Source: a virus. From it: a stretch of DNA of 64,000 nt. The stretch lies in IMG/VR virus record IMGVR_UViG_3300048790_000078, positions 22,260-86,259 of that record. One strand, given 5' to 3'. Below are positions 30,318-64,000 of this stretch, in pieces; within the stretch, counting starts at the first letter, position 1; each line of letters starts with the position of its first letter. The notes under the pieces are model-generated. The model was not told the origin of the DNA and did not search any database. It saw only the letters and a program-made list of their open reading frames with translations. The position numbers were made by a program, and so were the translations under genes.

Positions 30318-30947
30318 ACGCCTGAGCGGTGGTCGCGATTGAACATTGGCAATTGACTGTTCGAGCGTGTAACCGCGCCGCCGATAATATCCGTGAAGCC
30401 GAAAGTAACCTAGATGGAGTCGATTGGCTAATTGCTTTAGCGTCATCGTCTCGCCGAGATAAGTGACAATCACGTTTTTGGAAGTGTTCTGCCCTTGCTC
30501 TTCCCTTGTTGCCCAGCGGACGTTTCCCGGCTCGTAATTGCCGTCTTTGTTTGGCCATCGATCTAGCGAATGTAGCGGCGTTGGCCGCTGGCCGACATAG
30601 GACAAGAAGGCCGTAAAGTTTTCCACCCATTCCTGACACATCGTTATTCCGCGTCCGCCGTAACGGTGATACTCGTTGTGCTTAGGATAGAAGCAGCGCT
30701 GTTTCGCCCCTGCCCAAGATTGATATTCCAATTGGTGCGTGTTCTTGATTGCATTCGGCCTCAAGGCCCCGCACGGTTGGCATGATCTGCTCTTCCCTGA
30801 GCGCAAATCGTTCGTGCCTACCTCCTTAACGGTTCCGCATTCGCACCTGCACAGCCATCGCACCCTCTTCTTCTGCGCTGTCCTCTCGATAACGAACCAC
30901 TTCCCGAACGTCTGCCCTGTTACGTCAATAAAGTTGTCTCTGCCCAT
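30261..30947 (-). CDS. HNH homing endonuclease (228 aa), inserted against the operon
   Basis: Cys-rich zinc N-terminus (CRCECGTVKE, CQPCG), then YRYGGRGITMCQEW-type and SLDRWPNKDGNYEPGNVRW core shared with the endonucleases at 42597 and 50288. It is the only minus-strand gene in the 14-33 kb rightward block and has AT-richer codon use. A mobile insertion. Confidence 0.85.
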   Translation of the reverse strand: MGRDNFIDVTGQTFGKWFVIERTAQKKRVRWLCRCECGTVKEVGTNDLRSGKSRSCQPCGALRPNAIKNTHQLEYQSWAGAKQRCFYPKHNEYHRYGGRGITMCQEWVENFTAFLSYVGQRPTPLHSLDRWPNKDGNYEPGNVRWATREEQGQNTSKNVIVTYLGETMTLKQLANRLHLGYFRLHGYYRRRGYTLEQSIANVQSRPPLRRSSAANAPLPAVLNLGLFD

Positions 30948-39613: not shown

Positions 39614-39948
39614 AACACCGTCTCCCAGAGCGCCCGCGCCGGCCGCTTCTTGTCTGGCTCCAGATTCACCTTGGGGCGCTTGAAACAACCTGTCGCCGCC
39701 GACTTCGCCTCTTCCATCGTCTTCCCCACCGCGAACGCATACGGGCCGTGTTTGGCCGGGTAGAACAGGTGCTCCCTGTAGGCGCCAAATGTGCCCGGCG
39801 TTTGCTTTACTCCCATCGGCCAATCTTGTGGAGCATCTTCCGGGATCTCATGGACGTACACCACGAACTCGCCGCTGCAGAAATACTGCACGCCGGAAGA
39901 ATCCGACCCGGTTGACCAGTCGATGAAGGTTGCCCGCTCAGTCTGCAT
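39610..39948 (-). CDS. Hypothetical protein (112 aa)
   Basis: ATG 39948 with AGGAG upstream, overlapping the dnaB 3-prime end by 11 bp. Beta-rich (VQYFCSGEFVVYVHEIPED, HGPYAFAVGKTMEEAKSAA). Unrecognised. Confidence 0.6.
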   Translation of the reverse strand: MQTERATFIDWSTGSDSSGVQYFCSGEFVVYVHEIPEDAPQDWPMGVKQTPGTFGAYREHLFYPAKHGPYAFAVGKTMEEAKSAATGCFKRPKVNLEPDKKRPARALWETVL

Positions 39949-42607
39949 GTTGCCACTCCTGTTGCTCTGGTGGAATATCCCCGAGATCTTCCGCTCTGCT
40001 CTCGAACTTTTGCATTGCTGCCATCCACGCGAGATCGATCGTCCCAACGCTTCCGTTGCGCTGCTTTGCGAGAATAAGTTCTGCCAGCCCGCGAAGATCT
40101 TCGCGATCTTTTTTGTACATCTCCTCGCGAAAGATGAACGCCACTAGGTCAGCATCCTGCTCCAGTGAGTTGTGGACATAGATGTCGTTGGCTACATAGT
40201 TTTCATTTCCCGGTACCGTCAAATCGAACGTCTCCTGAACACCGGACGGCTCTACTGAGACCACCTCATCCCAGTAGATATCGCTGGCTGCTAGCTTTCC
40301 GAGTCGTTCGCATCCAGATGCCGATGCGAACTTTGCGGCCCGCTCACGGCTCATGTTTTGATGGTGGGTAGAAACTCCAGAATAAGAACAACCTGACAAC
40401 TCCGCCAGTTGCCGCGAATCGAGTCCTTTGGAACGCATCGCTGCGTCCACCTCAGTCCACATAGAGGCAGGGATAATGTCGCGATTCGTATTGTGCTCGA
40501 TCATGTCCAGATGCTCGACGATAAGCTCCAGTTGACGCTTGTGTCTCTCGCTCATGGCACCTATAGAGTTGGCGAACCGTGTCATGTCCGGCTTCCCGCT
40601 GAGGGTAACGTGATAATTCACAAGGCCTTTTTTCTGCGGTACAGGAACAGTCCTTGCATTGATAGACAACCTCAGCAGCGCCGATTGAATCTGGCAGGCC
40701 AGCTTCTGACTGCTGGTGGAGTAATAAACATTCGGCCCGTCGTCGAATGAAATACAGCCATCCGTTGACCATAGATGAGCAAGAAACTTTGCGATGGCCG
40801 TTACTGGCTGCATAAATATAGCTTCCGGCATCTTCTTGTCCGGCGCCCTCAACCCGAACAGTCCCATCGGTTCAAGCCACGCCCGCACAGGCGTCATACG
40901 GCCACGTGCTAACCGAAATGAAGCTGACAGGTAAACCTGTATCCATGTTCTCTCCCGTGAAATGCGCGGAGAGATACGGTCGCCAAACATTCGGCTGGCG
41001 CACGCTGCCACCATATCGGCGAGTTCTGGATGCGGGGTCGTGTACTGCACAATATGCCGCGGAAGGGTACATCCATTACCGATCAGATGCCCGAGGAGCA
41101 TCAACTCGTCGTCAGACATCGTTTGAGACTGCGAGCATGCTCTTGTAACGCGAGGCACGCCAATTCTCGTCCCCGTAGTGATTTCATCAAGCCTGAGCCA
41201 CCCCTGGAAGCCCATAAATTTCTGGTTGGCGGTAGCGACAATGGAGCGCCCGAGCTGAGTAGTAAGTCTGAAAGTTGGCTTCATCCCTGTGCTGAACGCC
41301 CGCACAGCAATGCCACACTCCTGCTTTAGCGTATCCTTCCCGCTCGTCAAAACAGGTAAAGGCCCCATGTTTAGCGTTGAGGATATTTCGAGGCGCGCGC
41401 CTGATGAGGCGACCGTCACAAGAGACGCTCCTGCCAGACAGCCAGACTCCTTCAGGTCAATCAGCCGCGGCCGCATGTCGCCGGTCCGCTTCTCGCTCTC
41501 CCTGCTCACCTGGGACAGCGCCACGATCGCCATGTCGAGCTGGTCCGACCCGGTGAGCATCTTCAGCCCGCGGGAGATCTTTGAGACCTCCTGGTTCCGG
41601 CTCTCGCCCTTGCCTGCCATCAACTGCAGGTAGTCGATCACCGCCAGGCAGAACTTGATCTTGTTTTTCTGCTGGCACTGCCGGACCTTCGCGTGGAAGT
41701 CCATCACCGTAAGATTCGAGGAATCGTCCACGTAAAGCGGGGTGTCGACGATCCGGTTGGCGGCCTCGCGTAGCTTCGCGATTTCCTGCTGATTTAGATA
41801 CCCGGCCCGGAGCCGGTGCGAGTCGATCCGCGCCACACTGCACAATAACCGCAGCATGAGGCTTTCGGTGGACATCTCCAGCGCGAAGACGGCCACAGGC
41901 TCGTTATACCGCGATGCCACGTTCCATGCCATGTTCAGGGAGAAGGCACTTTTGCCAGCGCCGGGTCTTGCGGCCAACAGCATCAGTTCGCCGCTTCGCA
42001 GCCCGCCGGTCATCTCGTCGAACTTCGCGAAGCCGATCTGGCGGCCGTTCTCTCGGGTATGCGGTTGGACGAAGCTCTGAAGTCCGCCCGGGAATCCGCG
42101 GAGGTACTCGCCGGCCGAGACAAGGCCGCCGCCGGCCTTCTGCCGTCCCTCTCCGATCCCCATGAACGCTTCCCCGGCGCCAGCGAGGATCTCGTCTGGT
42201 GACTCCTGAGCCAGCAAGGCCCGGTTCCGGATGTGCTCCGAGGTGTGGATGATCCGCCGGAGCGAGGCCTTGTCCTTGATGATTTTGATGTAGCTCGACA
42301 GGTCGCGGACGTGGGGCATGCCCTCTTCCATCGAGAGGAGCCCCGACAGCCCGCCGGCGGATTCCAGTTCTTTGTGCCGCATCAACTCTTCGGCGATTTC
42401 GACGCGGCCGATCTTCTCCCCGCGCTCGGCCAGATCCACCAGGCGGGCGAAGATCAGACGATGCGCGTTCAGGGAAAACAAGTCCGCATGCAGTTCACCG
42501 GCAATCTCGCTGAATCGTTCGCCGTCGATCAGGACAGATGCGAGGACGAACTGTTCAGCCTGACGGCTCTCGGGGAGTCCGCGATCTAATTCGATGTCAG
42601 GCCGCAT
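39938..42607 (-). CDS. dnaB: Replicative DNA helicase DnaB with intein (889-aa precursor)
   Basis: The N-terminal domain starts LDRGLPESRQAEQFVLASVL. Walker A is ARPGAGKS (213-220); H2-H4 motifs include VFALEMSTESLMLRLLCSVA, AVIDYLQLMAG and RLIDLKESG. After removing the 424-aa intein the helicase is 465 aa, normal length, and its C-terminus reads SLEQDADLVAFIFREE and LAKQRNGSVG. The hexamer unwinds DNA at the fork. Its start overlaps an HNH homing gene, and a truncated copy of its own 5-prime end lies beyond that gene. Confidence 0.95.
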   Translation of the reverse strand: MRPDIELDRGLPESRQAEQFVLASVLIDGERFSEIAGELHADLFSLNAHRLIFARLVDLAERGEKIGRVEIAEELMRHKELESAGGLSGLLSMEEGMPHVRDLSSYIKIIKDKASLRRIIHTSEHIRNRALLAQESPDEILAGAGEAFMGIGEGRQKAGGGLVSAGEYLRGFPGGLQSFVQPHTRENGRQIGFAKFDEMTGGLRSGELMLLAARPGAGKSAFSLNMAWNVASRYNEPVAVFALEMSTESLMLRLLCSVARIDSHRLRAGYLNQQEIAKLREAANRIVDTPLYVDDSSNLTVMDFHAKVRQCQQKNKIKFCLAVIDYLQLMAGKGESRNQEVSKISRGLKMLTGSDQLDMAIVALSQVSRESEKRTGDMRPRLIDLKESGCLAGASLVTVASSGARLEISSTLNMGPLPVLTSGKDTLKQECGIAVRAFSTGMKPTFRLTTQLGRSIVATANQKFMGFQGWLRLDEITTGTRIGVPRVTRACSQSQTMSDDELMLLGHLIGNGCTLPRHIVQYTTPHPELADMVAACASRMFGDRISPRISRERTWIQVYLSASFRLARGRMTPVRAWLEPMGLFGLRAPDKKMPEAIFMQPVTAIAKFLAHLWSTDGCISFDDGPNVYYSTSSQKLACQIQSALLRLSINARTVPVPQKKGLVNYHVTLSGKPDMTRFANSIGAMSERHKRQLELIVEHLDMIEHNTNRDIIPASMWTEVDAAMRSKGLDSRQLAELSGCSYSGVSTHHQNMSRERAAKFASASGCERLGKLAASDIYWDEVVSVEPSGVQETFDLTVPGNENYVANDIYVHNSLEQDADLVAFIFREEMYKKDREDLRGLAELILAKQRNGSVGTIDLAWMAAMQKFESRAEDLGDIPPEQQEWQHAD
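40169..41440 (-). other. Intein in DnaB (LAGLIDADG type, 424 aa)
   Basis: Inserted between DLKESG and SLEQDAD, a known intein site of DnaB helicases. Begins CLAGASLVTVASSGARL, has a TANQKFMGFQGW block B, DOD motifs LLGHLIGNGCT and FLAHLWSTDGCI, a helix-turn-helix-like segment, and ends DLTVPGNENYVANDIYVHN before Ser. The penultimate His is present, unlike the portal inteins. Confidence 0.93.
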
Positions 42608-43096: not shown

Positions 43097-43231
43097 TTAA
43101 ATTGCCGCCACTTCAGTGAACCGCTCCCCGTCGAGGATGATCGATCCGAGGAGGAACCGCTCGGCGTCGAGCGCCTGCGGAAGTCCGCGATCCAGCGGAG
43201 AGGTGTCCGACGGTGCTCCGTTCCTGCTCAT
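43097..43231 (-). pseudogene. Truncated dnaB 5-prime copy (44 codons)
   Basis: MSRNGAPSDTSPLDRGLPQ and AERFLLGSIILDGERFTEVA align with the start of intact dnaB (LDRGLPESRQAEQFVLASVL, IDGERFSEIA), about 60 percent identical over about 30 residues, then stop at TAA. It is ATGA-coupled to the HD gene, as the original dnaB would be. The downstream HNH gene and a diverged second 5-prime end separate it from the functional gene. Confidence 0.8.
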
Positions 43232-56164: not shown

Positions 56165-56611
56165 TCATCTTCCCACAATCAGCCGCGCGTTGCCGACGAA
56201 CCCGACGCCGATTGGCGCCGCCAGCCCAAGGTCTACCAGCCCCGTCGCCCGCTCCCATGGATCACGGTAGCGCCAGCGCTGAAAGGCCGGCAAGAACTCC
56301 AGCGCCTCCTGCCCGATGCCGAACGCGAGAATCGCCGCTTTCGCAGCGGTGAACTTCGGCACGTTGAGCACGCACGGCTTCAGCAGGAATACTGCGTTCT
56401 GTTCGCACAGCGGCCCGCCAGGCGATCCGTACCTGATGGTGGTCACGTAGTCCCCGGCAGAGAACATCTGAAGCGCTGCGTTGGCCGTGCGGCGGAATGT
56501 GACGTCGTTCGGTGCATGGTGGTAGATGTGCGCGATGGCCGAGAGCGGGATCGAGACGGTCTGGGCCTGAGCGGAGAAGCAGGCGAGAAGGGCGGCGAGC
56601 AAGGGCTTCAT
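56165..56611 (-). CDS. Secreted hypothetical protein (148 aa)
   Basis: Signal peptide MKPLLAALLACFSAQAQ with AQA|QTVSI cleavage. Body has AIAHIYHHAPNDVTFRRTAN and ALQMFSAGDYVTTIRYG. Start at ATG 56611; an earlier ATG would bury the signal. Last of four exported tail-region proteins. Confidence 0.65.
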   Translation of the reverse strand: MKPLLAALLACFSAQAQTVSIPLSAIAHIYHHAPNDVTFRRTANAALQMFSAGDYVTTIRYGSPGGPLCEQNAVFLLKPCVLNVPKFTAAKAAILAFGIGQEALEFLPAFQRWRYRDPWERATGLVDLGLAAPIGVGFVGNARLIVGR

Positions 56612-56747
56612 GTGTCCAGGATACCGCGATTCAGTTCGCAAGGAATCCTTGACCGCTGGACGCGGAAATGTCACCGCGCCGGTCCCGTCCCGCCGGTCAC
56701 CCGCACGTCCTGGTTCCGGGCGCTTGCGGTGATGCAGAGGGACGGTC

Positions 56748-58913
56748 TCAATTTATCACCGTATAACTGAAGCAAGCTGGGTTTGTTACCGGTGCTGAGC
56801 TTGTGATGGTAAAGCTGACCCCCGCTGTACGAGCGCTCACCCCGAATAATGCTGGCTCCGTGGCGTTGCAGGTAACTCCCAGTTTAGCTCCGAGGCTGGC
56901 ATCGAATGTTACCAAAATTTGTGAATTGGCCGTGACTACTGAAGTGTTTACGGTCACCGTTGTTGCGGAAGCGGTGACCACTACAGATCCTGACGGAGCG
57001 TTCGCGCACGCTGCTGGCGAGGCAGAAGATGAACAATTGGAACTGGTCAATAAAAAAGGGGCGGATGGTAGCGTGATGTTTGAGGCAGGTTTCAGCGCTA
57101 CCATAAAAGCTGCGAACGGATCAGCCGAAGTATTGTCATTTGATACAGCGTTGGTGCTCCCGGCTATTCCCTGAACTTTATACTCTGTCAGAACCTGATT
57201 GGACAAGAATCTTTGAATCGCAGTGAACCCGCTCCCCGCGCTGTTCACGCCATTGTAAACAAGGGTGAACCCGAAAATTAAATCGTTATTGATGGCATTC
57301 GGGGCGATTGGGGTGTAGACGTTTCCCGTCCCCGTTCCACTCGTAGAACTGTTATTGGCGCTTTTTGTTGCGGCCTCAATAGAGGTGCACGACTTAGCAC
57401 CAACGATTTCGACCGCGAACATCCTCGGGTAGTTGGTGGACGTTGCTGCCGTGAGAGTCACAGTATTGCTGGCGGTCGAAAATGTATTTGATGCACAGAA
57501 AATCTCCGCGACGGTCGCGCTTCCATTGATGGCCGTGACGGCGCCTGCACCCGCATCGGCATATGTGTTTGTCGCGGTGTCGGCCACGCTGATTGTGTTG
57601 TTATTGGAATTTGATCCGCCGCTTAGAATGACGCTTCCGGGTGTAAGCGGATTGGTGAAAGTACATGCCAGATTAGGGCTTCCAGTTCCTGCCGGAGCCG
57701 TATTACTGCATGAATTGACGACCTGAAAACCATAGCCAACGGAAGCATTCAGAGCGGAGGTCGGGAAGATATTCCCAGTAGTATCCTGCTGAAATGGACT
57801 CAGCGAAGATAACGCCGCTCCGGTATTATTCGCGGGGATTGGCCCATACGCTACAGCCACCCCGGAACGCGGAACCCATCCGTTCGCGTTAAGCCCAATC
57901 GAAACCGGAGCGCTCCACGTTCCTGAATTTCCCGGCCACGAAGGGCTCTCGCTCCATGCCATTCCTGTCCCGGCATTTGACTGATCCATGTACATCCGGT
58001 AAGCTGTTGCGCCTGCCGATGTTGTGTATGTAACCAAAGACCCAGCTTCGACTGCCCCCCAATTTCCCCAGTTGGAGGCAGTTAAAGAGCACCCTGCTGT
58101 CGGCCCGGTGCATGTGAAATACACCAGTTGCTGCGTCCCGCTATTGTTGTTTTTGGCAACTAAAATGTAAGCGCCGCCGATGATGTACATCGAGCCATCG
58201 ATGTAATTTGTCCCCGTGATCGCATTTGGATTTCCACCTACAGTGCTTGTTCCCTGGGGGTTGACGGTTGACGTTCCGGCCCCAAAAGAGGAGAACGGAT
58301 TTGCCGCGGATGAAGTCACGGGAAGAGAATAAATCTCCATCGTGTTCATGGAGGCATTCCCCGCGCTGAGCATTACGTAGATACTTCCGTCTGCGTCTAT
58401 AAAAGGCTTAGGTGCCCAAAAGTCAACCGCTCCGGTGATAGTCGGCGTGACGGTAGCATAGGCACTCCAGTGAAGACCATCCGTACTGTTAGCGATCCCG
58501 AAATAGGCGTTATTCGACGTTGTATCGGTACACGATGCCGTGTCGGCGGTGTAAAACAGCCACCACTGATTATAAAGAAACAGGATGTCAGGGTCGCGCA
58601 GGGCAACTGTTGGAGTATAGGTAGGCCCGTCTCCCAGAAGCGTGAAGTTATGCCCGTCCGTAGAAATGGACAGGTGCATCTTGCATGAGCCAGGCTCTCC
58701 ACTGACCGATCCGTCGAAAGTCGGAAGCAGGATCATTTGAGTAGAGATCCACGCGGCGGAACTCGAAGACTGACCTACCACGACAGCCCCCGCGCTCGGA
58801 CTTACCGTTACCAGGGTGGGACCGATCCCCGAGGAGGCGGAACTTCCGATTTGGGCGTCCTGGCCGAGAAGCGCGGCGGCCGAAAGCAGAACTGCGACGA
58901 TAAGGCTTCTCAT
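56748..58913 (-). CDS. Secreted glycosidase-like protein (721 aa)
   Basis: Signal peptide MRSLIVAVLLSAAALLGQ. Residues about 60-350 look like a five-bladed beta-propeller of the GH43/GH32-type superfamily: RDPDILFLYNQWWLFYTADT, FWAPKPFIDADGSIYVML and GGAYILVAKN. The C-terminal half is Ser/Thr/Asn-rich beta (TITVN-type). It probably cleaves host glycans. ATGA-coupled to the next secreted gene upstream. Confidence 0.7.
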   Translation of the reverse strand: MRSLIVAVLLSAAALLGQDAQIGSSASSGIGPTLVTVSPSAGAVVVGQSSSSAAWISTQMILLPTFDGSVSGEPGSCKMHLSISTDGHNFTLLGDGPTYTPTVALRDPDILFLYNQWWLFYTADTASCTDTTSNNAYFGIANSTDGLHWSAYATVTPTITGAVDFWAPKPFIDADGSIYVMLSAGNASMNTMEIYSLPVTSSAANPFSSFGAGTSTVNPQGTSTVGGNPNAITGTNYIDGSMYIIGGAYILVAKNNNSGTQQLVYFTCTGPTAGCSLTASNWGNWGAVEAGSLVTYTTSAGATAYRMYMDQSNAGTGMAWSESPSWPGNSGTWSAPVSIGLNANGWVPRSGVAVAYGPIPANNTGAALSSLSPFQQDTTGNIFPTSALNASVGYGFQVVNSCSNTAPAGTGSPNLACTFTNPLTPGSVILSGGSNSNNNTISVADTATNTYADAGAGAVTAINGSATVAEIFCASNTFSTASNTVTLTAATSTNYPRMFAVEIVGAKSCTSIEAATKSANNSSTSGTGTGNVYTPIAPNAINNDLIFGFTLVYNGVNSAGSGFTAIQRFLSNQVLTEYKVQGIAGSTNAVSNDNTSADPFAAFMVALKPASNITLPSAPFLLTSSNCSSSASPAACANAPSGSVVVTASATTVTVNTSVVTANSQILVTFDASLGAKLGVTCNATEPALFGVSARTAGVSFTITSSAPVTNPACFSYTVIN

Positions 58914-59398
58914 TGTTCTATCCACCTGACGAAGGTATCCCCGCTGATGGTCCCGGTGAGCGGAGTCACCGAAACGCTGATGTTCTGGACGGTCGCGAGT
59001 CCGCGGGTCATGAACATGTTGGCGATGTTGAACGGCTGATTGCTGGTGAACGTGTAGCATCCCGCCGTCACACCGCCGCTGGAGTTGCTCGCCGTGTAGA
59101 CCTTGGTGGCTGAGATCGGAGCGCCAAAGAGTTGCTTCGGGCCCCCGGTATCCAGCGTGGTTGTAGCGGCCGTGCCGTTGTTGATGAAGCAGGCCTTAGC
59201 CGATTGCCCTGGCGTCAGGCTGATGCCGAGGTAGGCCCCGACCCACTGCCTGTTGGCGCCCGCCGGCAGTTGCAGCGTCAGTGTCTCTCCGGCCGAGGAG
59301 GCGAACGAGTCGTCGTAGGAGTACTGATTCGGCGGAGGAATCGTGCCTTGCGCCAGCAACGCGAGCGCGGTGAACGTCAGGATGAGCAATCGCTTCAT
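58910..59398 (-). CDS. Secreted hypothetical protein (162 aa)
   Basis: Signal peptide MKRLLILTFTALALLAQ, cleavage at LLA|QG. Beta-rich body (ETLTLQLPAGANRQWVGAYL, CYTFTSNQPFNIANMFMTRG). Between the glycosidase-like and spike genes, so likely part of the same surface-glycan module. Confidence 0.65.
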   Translation of the reverse strand: MKRLLILTFTALALLAQGTIPPPNQYSYDDSFASSAGETLTLQLPAGANRQWVGAYLGISLTPGQSAKACFINNGTAATTTLDTGGPKQLFGAPISATKVYTASNSSGGVTAGCYTFTSNQPFNIANMFMTRGLATVQNISVSVTPLTGTISGDTFVRWIEQ

Positions 59399-59443
59399 GC
59401 GAACAGTCTACCAATTCAGGACGTCTCCGTGGAGGTATGTCCT

Positions 59444-61915
59444 TTATTGGAGCACTCCGTTTACCCATGTGTACGTGCTGTTTGAGCATCCGCTCGGGAT
59501 GCCTGCCATGATCGTCGAGCAGTTCGTGACGTTCGTGGTTCCTGTGTACCCGGCCACCATCGCCGGGATAGAAAGGACGTTACCGGACTCCTGAAGCCCT
59601 GTGCCGACCGTGATCGCGCCTGTGTCGCCGCCGAGTGATGAGACGCCGGAGCTGCCACCGCCCATACAGTTCCAGTTTCCGTGATCGTATTGAGCAACCG
59701 TCCCAGTGCCACCCGTGACGCAAGCGCCTCCGGTAAATCCATCCTGTGAATTCTTGCAGTCAGTACAGTAAGCGAGAGCCCCGTCGCCGGGGACGCCAAG
59801 GCTGGAAAAGGCATAGTGGGTAAGCGCCAACTGCCCGTCCATGTTCACGTTTCCGTATAGATGAGTCGCTCCTGTAGACGTGGAAATGTGCATCAACTTT
59901 ACATATGTTTGACTGGTGCCTGCGGGCTTGCGATAGATAGAAAAGCTGTCGGCGTCTGAAAACGTCGCATCGTCATACCCTCCGATGTCCACTGCCCATG
60001 ATGGAAGGGCGCTGTTAGCCGGGACGCCTCCTGTGGTAGACGCTTTGGTTTCGTTTGCGGCCAGCCAAAGGCCATTGTAGTTACTTGCCGAGCCGCCGTT
60101 TGAGTGAAGCGCGCTGCCGAGTCCTGACGTAAAGGGGAACTGGATGTGAGAGGATGCTGCGGTACCAAAGCTAAAATCAAGCGAGTCCCACGCCATATTC
60201 AAAGATGTGAAAAACATCGACTGACTCGGACGATAGAAAGTGAATGTTTTAGCGACATTGAGAGCCGTGAAATCCATGACCCAGTCCCCGCCACCGTTGA
60301 GCTTAACAGCGATCTTATCGGTCGCTGCTGAGCCAAGGGAGAAAGGTCCGATGTCGAACTCATTCACTGCCGGGGTCTGGGTCACTCCCCCAGATCGCTC
60401 GCCAATTATCCCTATATCCGGCAGGAAACAGCTTGCCCCGTTGTTCCCGATCTGAGTCGGTGGCGACGATGCGTACAACGATCCGTTCAGGCAATTCGTA
60501 TAGCTGGCCTGTGTTCCGCCAACCACAGTCATTTCGTAAGGCAGTTGACCGTTCGTACTCGCGGTCGTGACGACGTTGGTGTTGTACTCCATGTACACGT
60601 CATCAAGCTGCAAGTTGCTTCCGCCGTCGTACAGAATACCGTCCGCGCCGCCGTCGATAAAGCCGCCGCTGATCTTGGTTCCAGCCGAGTTGCGCACGAT
60701 CACGTTCGACACGTAGCCCTTGACGCCGGTCCCGCGCATACGTGCATCGTTGCCGCCCGCATTGCCTGAACCAGGCCCATCGAATGACACCCCGAATGAT
60801 CCGGTCCATGTCTTTTGGTTGTAGAAATTCTCAATGGTCGAATCGACAATCTGGTTGCGATAGGTGACCGCTGTCGGCGTCCCGACCGCGTCCATATACA
60901 TCCAGATTCCTTGCCACATGTTGTTCATGTAGACATCTTTGATGATGCAGAACTGGGTATGCGTGGTCGTGGCATCGCTTGTGATCTCGATACCTTGATA
61001 CTGTGTTCCGCCGACCCCCTGGAAAGTGGCTCCGAGGACTTTGTTGCTGGAACCGAGGATAGTGAATACCCACTGGTTCGCGCAAATAGGGTTTATTACC
61101 GCTCCATACCCGCTGATCGTAATTGGCGCATTGGCGTTGGGCGTTCTGATCGTGACGGCGCAGATCGAATAGTTTCCGGCTGGCATCAGGATTGTTCCAC
61201 CGGAAATCTGAAGGCTATTGATAGCGGTCTGCAATGCCTGAGTGTCCGTTCCTGAGAAGTCTTTCACGCTGACGATATCCCGCATCTTCGCCTGAGCGCT
61301 ACGGGCCACGACAGCACCTGTCCCCTGCTGCACGAAAGTCTGAGAGTTGACCGAGCCGTTCGCTGTCGCCGTGACGGTCCAGTAATCGGTCGCTGAGTGC
61401 CCCGTTGTCGCCGCCCATGTGATCGTGACGCCATCACTGCCCGTCACCGTACCGCCCGATGTCCACGCCGCCGGGCAGCTTCCGACTGGAACCGAGAACT
61501 GCGTTGCGCTGACTCGCAGAACTGAAGCGTTCGCCACGTTGTAGCCGGATGGCGCTGCGCCGGTAACGGTCGCCTGCGCGCCGGTGAGCAGCCCATGAGA
61601 CGCTGCCGTGAAGGTGATCCGGCTTGCGGTACATGACGCCGCGGTGACCGTGCCTGCCGGATAGGTCATCGCCTGAGCTGCGCCTGTGACGTTGACCGCC
61701 GCGGTGGCCGTCCCGCCGTCGCGGGAGAACGTCACGGTGTCTGGCGTCCCCGACGCGGCAATCGTGGCCGTGTAGTAGTGGTTCGCCGCCGGGCTGGTGA
61801 ACGTCCCGCCGGAGGTCGCATCGTTCAGGCCGCTGCCTGTGAATACCGGCGGCCCGATGCTCACTGTCTGGGCGAGAGCGCAAGAGGAAACGAGGATAAG
61901 AAGTAGGGCTTTCAT
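59444..61915 (-). CDS. Tailspike-like protein with pectate-lyase fold and signal peptide (823 aa)
   Basis: Signal peptide MKALLLILVSSCALAQ (ALA|QTVS). Ig-like repeats follow (about 20-190), then IVSVKDFSGTDTQALQTAIN and TILMPAGNYSICAVTI, the start of a right-handed beta-helix (Pectate_lyase_3), and a long Gly/Ser/Asn-rich C-terminus. Typical of phage tailspikes that degrade capsule, but a Sec signal on a spike is unusual. Confidence 0.75.
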   Translation of the reverse strand: MKALLLILVSSCALAQTVSIGPPVFTGSGLNDATSGGTFTSPAANHYYTATIAASGTPDTVTFSRDGGTATAAVNVTGAAQAMTYPAGTVTAASCTASRITFTAASHGLLTGAQATVTGAAPSGYNVANASVLRVSATQFSVPVGSCPAAWTSGGTVTGSDGVTITWAATTGHSATDYWTVTATANGSVNSQTFVQQGTGAVVARSAQAKMRDIVSVKDFSGTDTQALQTAINSLQISGGTILMPAGNYSICAVTIRTPNANAPITISGYGAVINPICANQWVFTILGSSNKVLGATFQGVGGTQYQGIEITSDATTTHTQFCIIKDVYMNNMWQGIWMYMDAVGTPTAVTYRNQIVDSTIENFYNQKTWTGSFGVSFDGPGSGNAGGNDARMRGTGVKGYVSNVIVRNSAGTKISGGFIDGGADGILYDGGSNLQLDDVYMEYNTNVVTTASTNGQLPYEMTVVGGTQASYTNCLNGSLYASSPPTQIGNNGASCFLPDIGIIGERSGGVTQTPAVNEFDIGPFSLGSAATDKIAVKLNGGGDWVMDFTALNVAKTFTFYRPSQSMFFTSLNMAWDSLDFSFGTAASSHIQFPFTSGLGSALHSNGGSASNYNGLWLAANETKASTTGGVPANSALPSWAVDIGGYDDATFSDADSFSIYRKPAGTSQTYVKLMHISTSTGATHLYGNVNMDGQLALTHYAFSSLGVPGDGALAYCTDCKNSQDGFTGGACVTGGTGTVAQYDHGNWNCMGGGSSGVSSLGGDTGAITVGTGLQESGNVLSIPAMVAGYTGTTNVTNCSTIMAGIPSGCSNSTYTWVNGVLQ

Positions 61916-61920
61916 GGGTT

Positions 61921-64000
61921 TTACGCTGGAATTGGCCAGTCAATCGTTGGCGTCGACGTTGCGCGCGTGTTGCCGGTCGCGTCGGTCTGGAAAGAGATCA
62001 CGCATTCAGTGTTCGCTGGGCTCGCCGACGTGTTCAGCGTCCCCTGGATGAAGTAGCCGTTGGACGGCGTCACGCTGAGCGAGTGGCCTTGCTGCTGCCA
62101 CCAGGTCGGGCTGGAGTCCGGACTATTGCCGGTGTTCGCTGCCGCCAGCGATACGTAAAGCTGCGCGACGTTCGAGCCGCCAGGTGCGAAGTGAACGAAT
62201 ACGCCGGCCGCATACGTGGTCCCGACTGCCCATGCTGGCGCACTCGGGTCTTCCTGGCTGATAAGGGACCAGTTTGTCAGGATGCCCGCGCCGGTGCTGT
62301 AGTTGATCGGCTGGCCGAGGATCGTGTCCTGGGTGAGCACCAGCAGGTTAGTTCCCTTTGAGGCATCCGGCGTTGCCACACCGTTGACAATAGGGACGTT
62401 GTAGTAGGGGCTCGGTGGCGCGACCGTGCCGCTCTGGCCGAAGATGTACGTCTCCTGCATTGGCGACAGTTCAAAGTCCGACAGGTTGCCCAGCGAATCG
62501 GCCGATTGGAGAACCAGCAGCGAACTGACGCCGCTCTGGTTCGGGACTGGCACGGTCACGACGTTCGCGAGCGTTGGGTAGGTGTATGGCGTCCCCGAAA
62601 TGACCACCGTGTTAAGGGCCAGCGTCAGGTCCGATGAGCCGTTCACGACTACGCTCGGGGTGTCTTTGAACCCAAGCGGAGAAGGGTAGAGGATAACGAA
62701 GTCCGTCGTCGCGTCCGGCGTCACGGCCCACATGCCTTCAATCGTTATCGAGGTGCTCGTGTTCGATGCGATCTTGTTGTAAATCTGCCCCGCGCCGGTT
62801 CCGCCGACCGCTATGATGATGTTGCCTTTGTCCTGGTTGACAGCCAGGCCGGAAGGCGCGTAACTGCTCACGAAGTTCGGATCGGTGAAGCTGTTCGAGG
62901 TGATGCTCTGGGGCATGATGCGGCACACCCAAACGTCCCCGGACGGAACGGACGAAGACAGAATTCCGGCGGTCACGAACACGCTCAGATCGGTGTCCAG
63001 CGTCAGGACAGAGGCTGGTCCGGCCGTGTTGCTCACGATGCCGACTTCGAGGAGCGGGATGAAGTCGATCAGGCCGCCAGGTGCCAGAGCGTAAAGCTTC
63101 AGCCGATACCCAGCCAACTGATTGAGCGTCAGGTTCGCGCTGCTGAACGTGACAGTGAACGATCCATACGATGTCGCAATGTCGCCGAAGATTCCGCCAT
63201 GCGAGATCTGGAACGCGGTCATGCGGAGGTGGTCTTCTACCTCGTCGAGCGGGCCGTAACCGTCCCCTGGCCCAAACGGTGCCAGCGAACTGAGCGTAAT
63301 CGTCGCTGGCGCTCCACCGATTCCGCCGTTGCCGCTCACAAAGCTCAACTGGTCGATGTTTGGGCCGGAGTACACCCGATAGCCGTAATTGCTCGGGTCC
63401 CATGACGGCGTAATCACGACTTTAGAGCTACCGCTCGCCACAACGACCGTCGTCAATGCGAAGTTGGTTTCGATCCCATTGGTATCGTATCCAGACAAGG
63501 CCACGAGGTAGGTGCCGGCCGCGATGCTTCCGCCTCCGATAACTGCCGTGCTGGTGATCTTCGGTGCGCGGATCGCAGTCGTCGCCGTGTTCTTGGGAGG
63601 AATAAAGGCTGATGCAATCCCGACGCTGACGCTCGGGTCGGAGTTCTGGACACTCGACTGCATCAGGGTCATCCCGGGAGTCAGGCCGAGAAGGCTTGGG
63701 TCCTCGTTCAGGTTGAACGCTCCGACAGGCTGAGGCGGTAGAGGGAACCGTGTCTGTGTGCCTCTCACGGTGAACGGATACGCCGTCACGCTGGAGATGT
63801 TCTCATGCTGCTGGCCTGCCTGGTTGAACGCCGGAAACTTGAACCAGAACGTCTTGCCGATGTCGCCGGGCTGCAGTTGGTATTCGTACTGATTCCCATC
63901 TGCGATCAGAGTGAATGGCGCGTTGGAGGCATGCGGAACGTCGAACGTTCCGAAAACCCCGCGGCGCATGTACTTCGCCCCGCCGCCGGACTCGAAGTCG
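61921..64000 (-). CDS. Tail-tip/host-specificity protein, C-terminal part (runs off right edge)
   Basis: The frame stays open past the first internal ATG (63969) to the edge, with GGGAKYMRRGVFGTFDVPHA, then beta-rich repeats (LVALSGYDTNGIETNFALTT, YRVYSGPNIDQLSFV). It resembles the C-terminal part of gpJ/tail-tip proteins that precede the spike gene. About 693 residues visible; the N-terminus is beyond the window. Ends 5 bp before the spike start. Confidence 0.7.
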   Translation of the reverse strand, partial: DFESGGGAKYMRRGVFGTFDVPHASNAPFTLIADGNQYEYQLQPGDIGKTFWFKFPAFNQAGQQHENISSVTAYPFTVRGTQTRFPLPPQPVGAFNLNEDPSLLGLTPGMTLMQSSVQNSDPSVSVGIASAFIPPKNTATTAIRAPKITSTAVIGGGSIAAGTYLVALSGYDTNGIETNFALTTVVVASGSSKVVITPSWDPSNYGYRVYSGPNIDQLSFVSGNGGIGGAPATITLSSLAPFGPGDGYGPLDEVEDHLRMTAFQISHGGIFGDIATSYGSFTVTFSSANLTLNQLAGYRLKLYALAPGGLIDFIPLLEVGIVSNTAGPASVLTLDTDLSVFVTAGILSSSVPSGDVWVCRIMPQSITSNSFTDPNFVSSYAPSGLAVNQDKGNIIIAVGGTGAGQIYNKIASNTSTSITIEGMWAVTPDATTDFVILYPSPLGFKDTPSVVVNGSSDLTLALNTVVISGTPYTYPTLANVVTVPVPNQSGVSSLLVLQSADSLGNLSDFELSPMQETYIFGQSGTVAPPSPYYNVPIVNGVATPDASKGTNLLVLTQDTILGQPINYSTGAGILTNWSLISQEDPSAPAWAVGTTYAAGVFVHFAPGGSNVAQLYVSLAAANTGNSPDSSPTWWQQQGHSLSVTPSNGYFIQGTLNTSASPANTECVISFQTDATGNTRATSTPTIDWPIPA

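Follow-up and report, generated by a model that had tools for sequence, protein, structure and literature searches.

Assembly of tailed-phage virions is assumed to take place in the cytoplasm. In phage lambda, a gene between those for the tail spike and tail fiber codes for Lom, described as a leader-bearing outer-membrane beta-barrel (PMC12309495), so the gap between spike and fiber genes can host exported cargo. A tailspike-like fold can also be exported, as illustrated by WceF of Pantoea stewartii, a beta-helix protein that has an export signal and is reported to act on exopolysaccharide (PMC7949094). Lys44 of phage fOg44 and other signal-peptide endolysins are described as using host Sec export during infection (PMC6116005). 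We found no description of leader-bearing fibers as a class in searches of an open-access collection of papers.

The window analyzed here spans the last 64 kb, at the right, of an IMG/VR virus record of 86,259 bases from a soil phage, and its right edge is the end of the contig. Its tail region contains four adjacent minus-strand genes, A to D (823, 162, 721, and 148 aa), which share features with each of these systems. The products are leader-bearing like Lom, which also neighbors tail spike and fiber genes, but Lom is an outer-membrane beta-barrel and not fiber-like, whereas A to D match no such family in Pfam up to E 0.1. A resembles WceF as a predicted tailspike-like beta-helix protein with an export signal, but WceF is the product of a bacterial gene and has a Tat signal, whereas no twin-arginine motif is seen by eye in A, and none was found in the leaders of A to D on reading of the translations. 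The endolysins match our reading of A to D as phage proteins that would use host Sec export during infection, but they are lysis enzymes and not tail-related; no peptidoglycan-cutting domain was matched in A to D in Pfam or PHROGs. Within their tail modules, four phages of Tunturiibacter (Tunturi 1, 2, 4, and 5) have runs of 3 to 6 leader-bearing fiber or spike genes, and many of the leaders have their predicted cut before Q. No sequence relation to A to D emerged from the searches.

A cluster of leader-bearing genes in the tail region

Leaders were scored with a home-made rule that considers the n, h, and c regions and small residues at -3/-1. As positive controls, five of six E. coli leaders were caught and PhoA was missed; there are some false positives among short proteins, including two short tail-completion proteins that wrongly passed a lower threshold. 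By this rule A, B, C, and D score 14.4, 11.8, 13.7, and 12.4, respectively, and have the positive n-region, hydrophobic core, and small -3/-1 residues of Sec-type leaders. Scores above 11 are reached by only five of the 138 called genes in the contig, the fifth being a 477-aa head-module protein (13.7) encoded outside the window, where its gene is flanked by those for TnpB and the head protease; the next-best score is 10.5. If five leader genes were strewn randomly over 138, the chance of four in a row is, by simple arithmetic, ~5e-5. A sequence-only reading of the window had placed signal peptides on four consecutive tail-region proteins and proposed signal-peptide prediction as a check; its coordinates are right, and all four leaders prove strong when that prediction is made with our rule. 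Its further claim that all four are cleaved near Q agrees with inspection by eye, but the cut preferred by the rule has Q at +1 in A and D only, where QTV follows MKALLLILVSSCALA and MKPLLAALLACFSAQA, respectively (Table 1).

The same reading had raised the possibility that translation starts downstream of the hydrophobic stretch. Later in-frame start codons are indeed present, a GTG in A (codon 18) and TTGs in B (codons 4 and 14), but the start of A lies 5 bases past the stop of the upstream gene, and the leader-bearing ATG of C overlaps the stop of B as ATGA, although the mechanical open reading frame of C extends further upstream. The leader-bearing starts as called are thus likely, as judged from gene spacing. 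A sigma-70 promoter scan gave no signal above chance. We note that a GGTANNCT motif precedes the ATGs of B and D by 6-7 bases, a placement that a leaderless promoter might show; it is found at that place in 3 of 137 genes.

Table 1. Positions of the features discussed; coordinates are those of the window unless a contig or locus is named
Feature	Position	Strand	Remarks
Tail-tip-like gene upstream of A	61921..63999	-	Cut by contig end; start unseen
A, predicted leader-bearing beta-helix-type tailspike	59444..61915	-	823 aa; 13 cysteines after leader
Putative leader of A	61871..61915	-	MKALLLILVSSCALA then Q; rule-based
GGTANNCT motif before B	59399-59413	-	
B, small leader-bearing protein	58910..59398	-	162 aa; 2 cysteines
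Putative leader of B	59351..59398	-	MKRLLILTFTALALLA before Q; rule-preferred cut two residues later
C, leader-bearing protein	56748..58913	-	721 aa; 12 cysteines; weak GH43-like and K1-lyase C-terminal similarity
Putative leader of C	58863..58913	-	MRSLIVAVLLSAAALLG before Q; rule-preferred cut earlier
GGTANNCT motif before D	56612-56626	-	
D, small leader-bearing protein	56165..56611	-	148 aa; 2 cysteines after leader
Putative leader of D	56564..56611	-	MKPLLAALLACFSAQA then Q; rule-based
Short DnaB-like N-terminal piece	43097-43231		
DnaB helicase with intein	39938-42607	-	LAGLIDADG domain
Portal protein, 1317 aa	1-3445, onward left as L015:1751-5704	-	Matches Hint and LAGLIDADG domains
477-aa leader protein	G000:C1:12669-14102 (L014:12669-14102)	-	8 cysteines after leader
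2'-5' RNA ligase-like and ADP-ribosyltransferase domain fusion	L014:18545-19906	-	Outside window; late operon; weak Acb1 match

Protein A is, as judged from alignment, a beta-helix-type tailspike. Its helix-start region aligns with spikes at 12 IMG/VR loci (12 of 13 stretches scanned confirmed), all within residues 183-330, and no alignment to these 12 begins before residue 183. None of the 12 has a leader by the rule, with genes taken as called under the match, so these spikes resemble A in the helix start but begin with leaderless N-terminal domains. The leader and new domains of A would thus replace the usual leaderless N-terminal attachment domain. Phage isolates yielded two matches, covering 7-9% of A, and A and D had no match when each was compared with 199 Acidobacteriota genomes. 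AlphaFold single-sequence models of C and A gave unusable folds (mean pLDDT of 33.7 and 33.9), and sequence searches of both against solved structures found no meaningful match.

For the description of C as glycosidase-like, the Pfam matches are to GH43 (17.0 bits; cut-off 32.2) and K1-lyase_C (24.5 bits, E 3.8e-5; cut-off 27), both below the cut-off; C is probably a glycan-directed companion of A. We propose that B and D, for which nothing exceeds the cut-off in Pfam or PHROGs, are small accessory proteins. No relatives of B, C, D, or a 692-aa tail protein were confirmed in IMG/VR using peptide patterns, and C and the 477-aa leader protein have none among phage isolates. The product of the tail-tip-like gene preceding A matches a 1147-aa tip-like protein of a related phage, G001 (34% over 88 aa). 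Elsewhere in the source phage, the 1317-aa portal protein probably holds a second intein, in addition to that in DnaB.

Leader-bearing proteins in related and cultivated phages

The capsid protein of the source phage belongs to PHROG 13692 (E 1e-94) and led to 58 loci in IMG/VR and 33 in bacterial genomes. We read 22 contigs of this family fully or partly: the source phage, part of Brevundimonas phage Strzyga, and 20 further virus records. Fiber-like leader proteins are evident, by reading, in the late operons of nine of these (G000, G001, G002, G004, G006, G012, G015, G020, and G021), and none of the 27 genes in the Strzyga stretch reaches a score of 11. The leader genes shift place among the nine: they follow the tip gene or the tape measure gene, lie among the tail genes, or occupy the gap between terminase and portal genes, the last in G006 and G001; the 209-aa G001 protein encoded there is similar to the 477-aa protein over 55 aa (47%). 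Leaderless fiber-like genes are also present in G001, G002, G004, G020, and G021, and their leader genes lie elsewhere.

Ten related prophages in named hosts (nine Rhizobiales and one Rhodocyclaceae bin) served as a control set in which few leaders were expected. However, in seven the tail module encodes one to three leader proteins, with lengths of 293 to 919 aa, these being prophages of Rhodoblastus acidophilus DSM 142, DSM 137, and MO, two more Rhodoblastus bins, a Beijerinckiaceae bin, and Bradyrhizobium sp. Tv2a-2. The three without them include the badly gene-called G232, which is uninformative yet counted. Among late genes of at least 100 aa in the prophages, 20 of 211 score 9 or more. 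A restriction of the trait to Acidobacteriota is therefore rejected, because seven of these ten prophages, which are mostly of Alphaproteobacteria, show it.

A fiber of the related phage G006 matches a tail fiber of Tunturi 2 over 4% of its length. Tunturi 2 is one of five cultivated Acidobacteriota phages, which have podo-, sipho-, and myovirus forms and are reported to be unrelated except for Tunturi 1 and 2 (PMC11924767). Four of the five (Tunturi 1, 2, 4, and 5) encode leader-bearing fibers or spikes, with structural roles taken from annotations; the term "signal peptide" has no occurrence in the main text of the paper describing these phages, which leaves the trait unmentioned there (PMC11924767). 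Tunturi 1 and 2 both have leaders on gp12, gp13, gp14, gp16, and gp17 (in Tunturi 1, five of the 22 proteins checked; in Tunturi 2, five of eight), among which gp13 is annotated as a tail fiber (in Tunturi 2), gp14 as a pectin lyase/tail spike, and gp17 as a virion structural protein. Most of the large fiber or spike candidates among the 22 Tunturi 1 proteins have leaders, and leaderless ones are few. Leaders are present on gp113 and gp114 of Tunturi 4 (17 checked), and on its tail fiber gp111 too if an upstream TTG start is used; the GenBank start of gp111 (position 30433 of the locus, L182:30076-33171) omits this TTG, which adds both the leader and a stretch shared with gp113. In Tunturi 5, for which two stretches totaling 100 kb of 309 kb were covered, six consecutive genes (gp337 to gp342) encode leader proteins, of which three have tail-fiber annotations. 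None of 17 Tunturi 3 proteins checked has a leader. Fibers of one phage can have in common the stretch just past the leader, as in gp111 and gp113 of Tunturi 4 and gp337 and gp341 of Tunturi 5. The trait is thus wider than the one phage, being present in other environmental phages, in prophages, and in cultured Acidobacteriota phages.

We also observed an Acidobacteriota chromosomal cluster (L169-L175; G085, G073, G127, G060, and G203 were read) that contains a gene for a phage portal (in L169, Pfam E 5e-57) together with capsid- and connector-like genes by eye; no tape measure gene was seen. At the same place in each is a gene for a fiber-like protein of ~1,090-1,540 aa with an apparent leader, and a GDSL lipase domain was found in the one scanned; the N-terminal domain of this protein has a match in 13 of 199 genomes. 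The cluster may be a domesticated phage or a gene-transfer-like element.

Cleavage style, cysteines, and leaderless controls

With a scorer blind to the +1 residue, this residue was compared between phages and hosts. Among host leaders, Q is at +1 in 20 of 43 for two Acidobacteriota genomes versus 3 of 19 for two genomes of Alphaproteobacteria (p=0.025, Fisher test). The phages show the same difference, with 11 of 19 leaders of Tunturi 2, 4, and 5 and the source phage having Q at +1 (3 of 5, by the rule, in the source phage itself) versus 2 of 13 in the control prophages. The phage leaders follow the cleavage style of their hosts. For the source phage, this style is the only hint of an Acidobacteriota host, and a weak one. 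A host link through a 174-aa protein of the related phage G001 is also weak, with a match in 1 of 149 Acidobacteriota genomes. A 3.8-kb contig of a MAG labeled Gemmatimonadetes (palsa_1236; L047) has a capsid start 85% identical to that of the source phage, but the contig is too short for the host label to be trusted.

Leader-bearing late proteins have more cysteines than others (1.50 per 100 aa in 35 proteins versus 0.85 in 365; p=0.008) and more often an even number of them (20 of 29 versus 125 of 295; p=0.005), although the proteins are not independent in either comparison. Neither a broader comparison (p=0.20) nor the source phage alone (p=0.21) is significant, so a general description of leader proteins as cysteine-rich is weakened, the difference being significant in the late-module comparison only. 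The cysteine statistics agree weakly with export.

By the rule, none of 21 structural-region proteins of Agrobacterium phage 7-7-1 has a leader; many of these are reported by its authors to have been detected by mass spectrometry. The premise that virion proteins normally lack export signals is borne out by these and by the 12 spikes related to A, but the leader-bearing phages described above depart from it.

Probable export and its alternatives

The leaders are present, clustered, recurrent, and host-styled. Because they look real and have these properties, secretion during infection or attachment to particles after export, as the sequence-only reading had proposed, are the right alternatives to weigh; the depolymerase and receptor-blocker roles that it suggested are no more than candidate roles. 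We interpret A to D as Sec-exported members of a tail-fiber/spike module. Late in infection they would be made as pre-proteins and passed through the host Sec channel, and host signal peptidase I would cut them next to Q. Once out of the cytoplasm they would fold, with oxidation of cysteine pairs possible there, and they would work at the cell surface or beyond it, with glycans as the most likely target. Export itself is highly likely, because the leaders match the host cleavage style, and action on glycans is fairly probable. The clustering of the leaders, the fiber position past a tip-like gene, the spike identity of A, and the recurrence in other phages all speak for a fiber or spike reading, and we consider it reasonably probable overall that A to D are exported, extracytoplasmic fiber or spike proteins, irrespective of whether they are mounted on particles.

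As to their fate, we favor a scheme in which A to D would wait in the periplasm and join particles at cell lysis, because of their fiber nature, the scarcity of leaderless large fiber candidates in Tunturi 1, and the post-leader stretches common within a phage. Mounting on virions nonetheless stays tentative, with a likelihood a little under even. The strongest alternative is that A to D are free cargo, released during infection or by lysogens without ever joining virions; they could then trim surface or matrix glycans, aid spread, or block superinfection, in the manner of Lom-like cargo encoded at the same spot in lambda. The changing late-operon positions of the leader genes and the coexistence of leaderless fiber-like genes in several related phages favor this, since leader genes lying elsewhere beside leaderless fiber-like genes fit accessory cargo better than an essential spike. 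Both leader-bearing Lom, encoded between spike and side-fiber genes (PMC12309495), and WceF, a tailspike-like enzyme with an export signal (PMC7949094), are precedents. However, many of the leader proteins have fiber-like sequence, the Tunturi annotations are tail fiber or virion structural, and the few leaderless large fiber candidates in Tunturi 1 argue for a virion role for at least some of them; we therefore regard free cargo as rather unlikely for A to D.

It is much less likely that the hydrophobic N-terminus is a virion anchor or assembly peptide, or that translation begins past it. Cleavage is a prediction and later in-frame starts such as the GTG of A are available, but the -3/-1 residues are peptidase-like, the +1 residue follows host habit, the start of C is coupled to the stop of B, and similar leaders recur in unrelated phages. 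An artefact of chance hydrophobic starts, or of host genes misassembled into what is a single metagenomic contig scored with a predictor that has some false positives, we hold to be already refuted, given five strong leaders in 138 genes with four adjacent, and a matching pattern both in cultured phages with complete genomes and in bacterial prophages.

If A to D and their counterparts are exported fibers and spikes, part of the host-recognition apparatus of some phages may be built outside the cytoplasm. We can envisage, with less confidence than for any part of the A to D scheme, a widespread class of tailed phages with hosts of at least two phyla, in which fibers and spikes would be secretory, disulfide-matured in the periplasm, and added to complete the virion at or after lysis. 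If fibers and spikes are exported first, assembly order, disulfide folding, lysis timing, and host recognition would need to be rethought for many soil phages. Receptor-binding proteins would also be mis-annotated, as where the GenBank record of Tunturi 4 drops the leader of one fiber through a later start, or would be read as secreted enzymes of the host or as auxiliary metabolic genes. The cultured Tunturi isolates make the trait directly testable.
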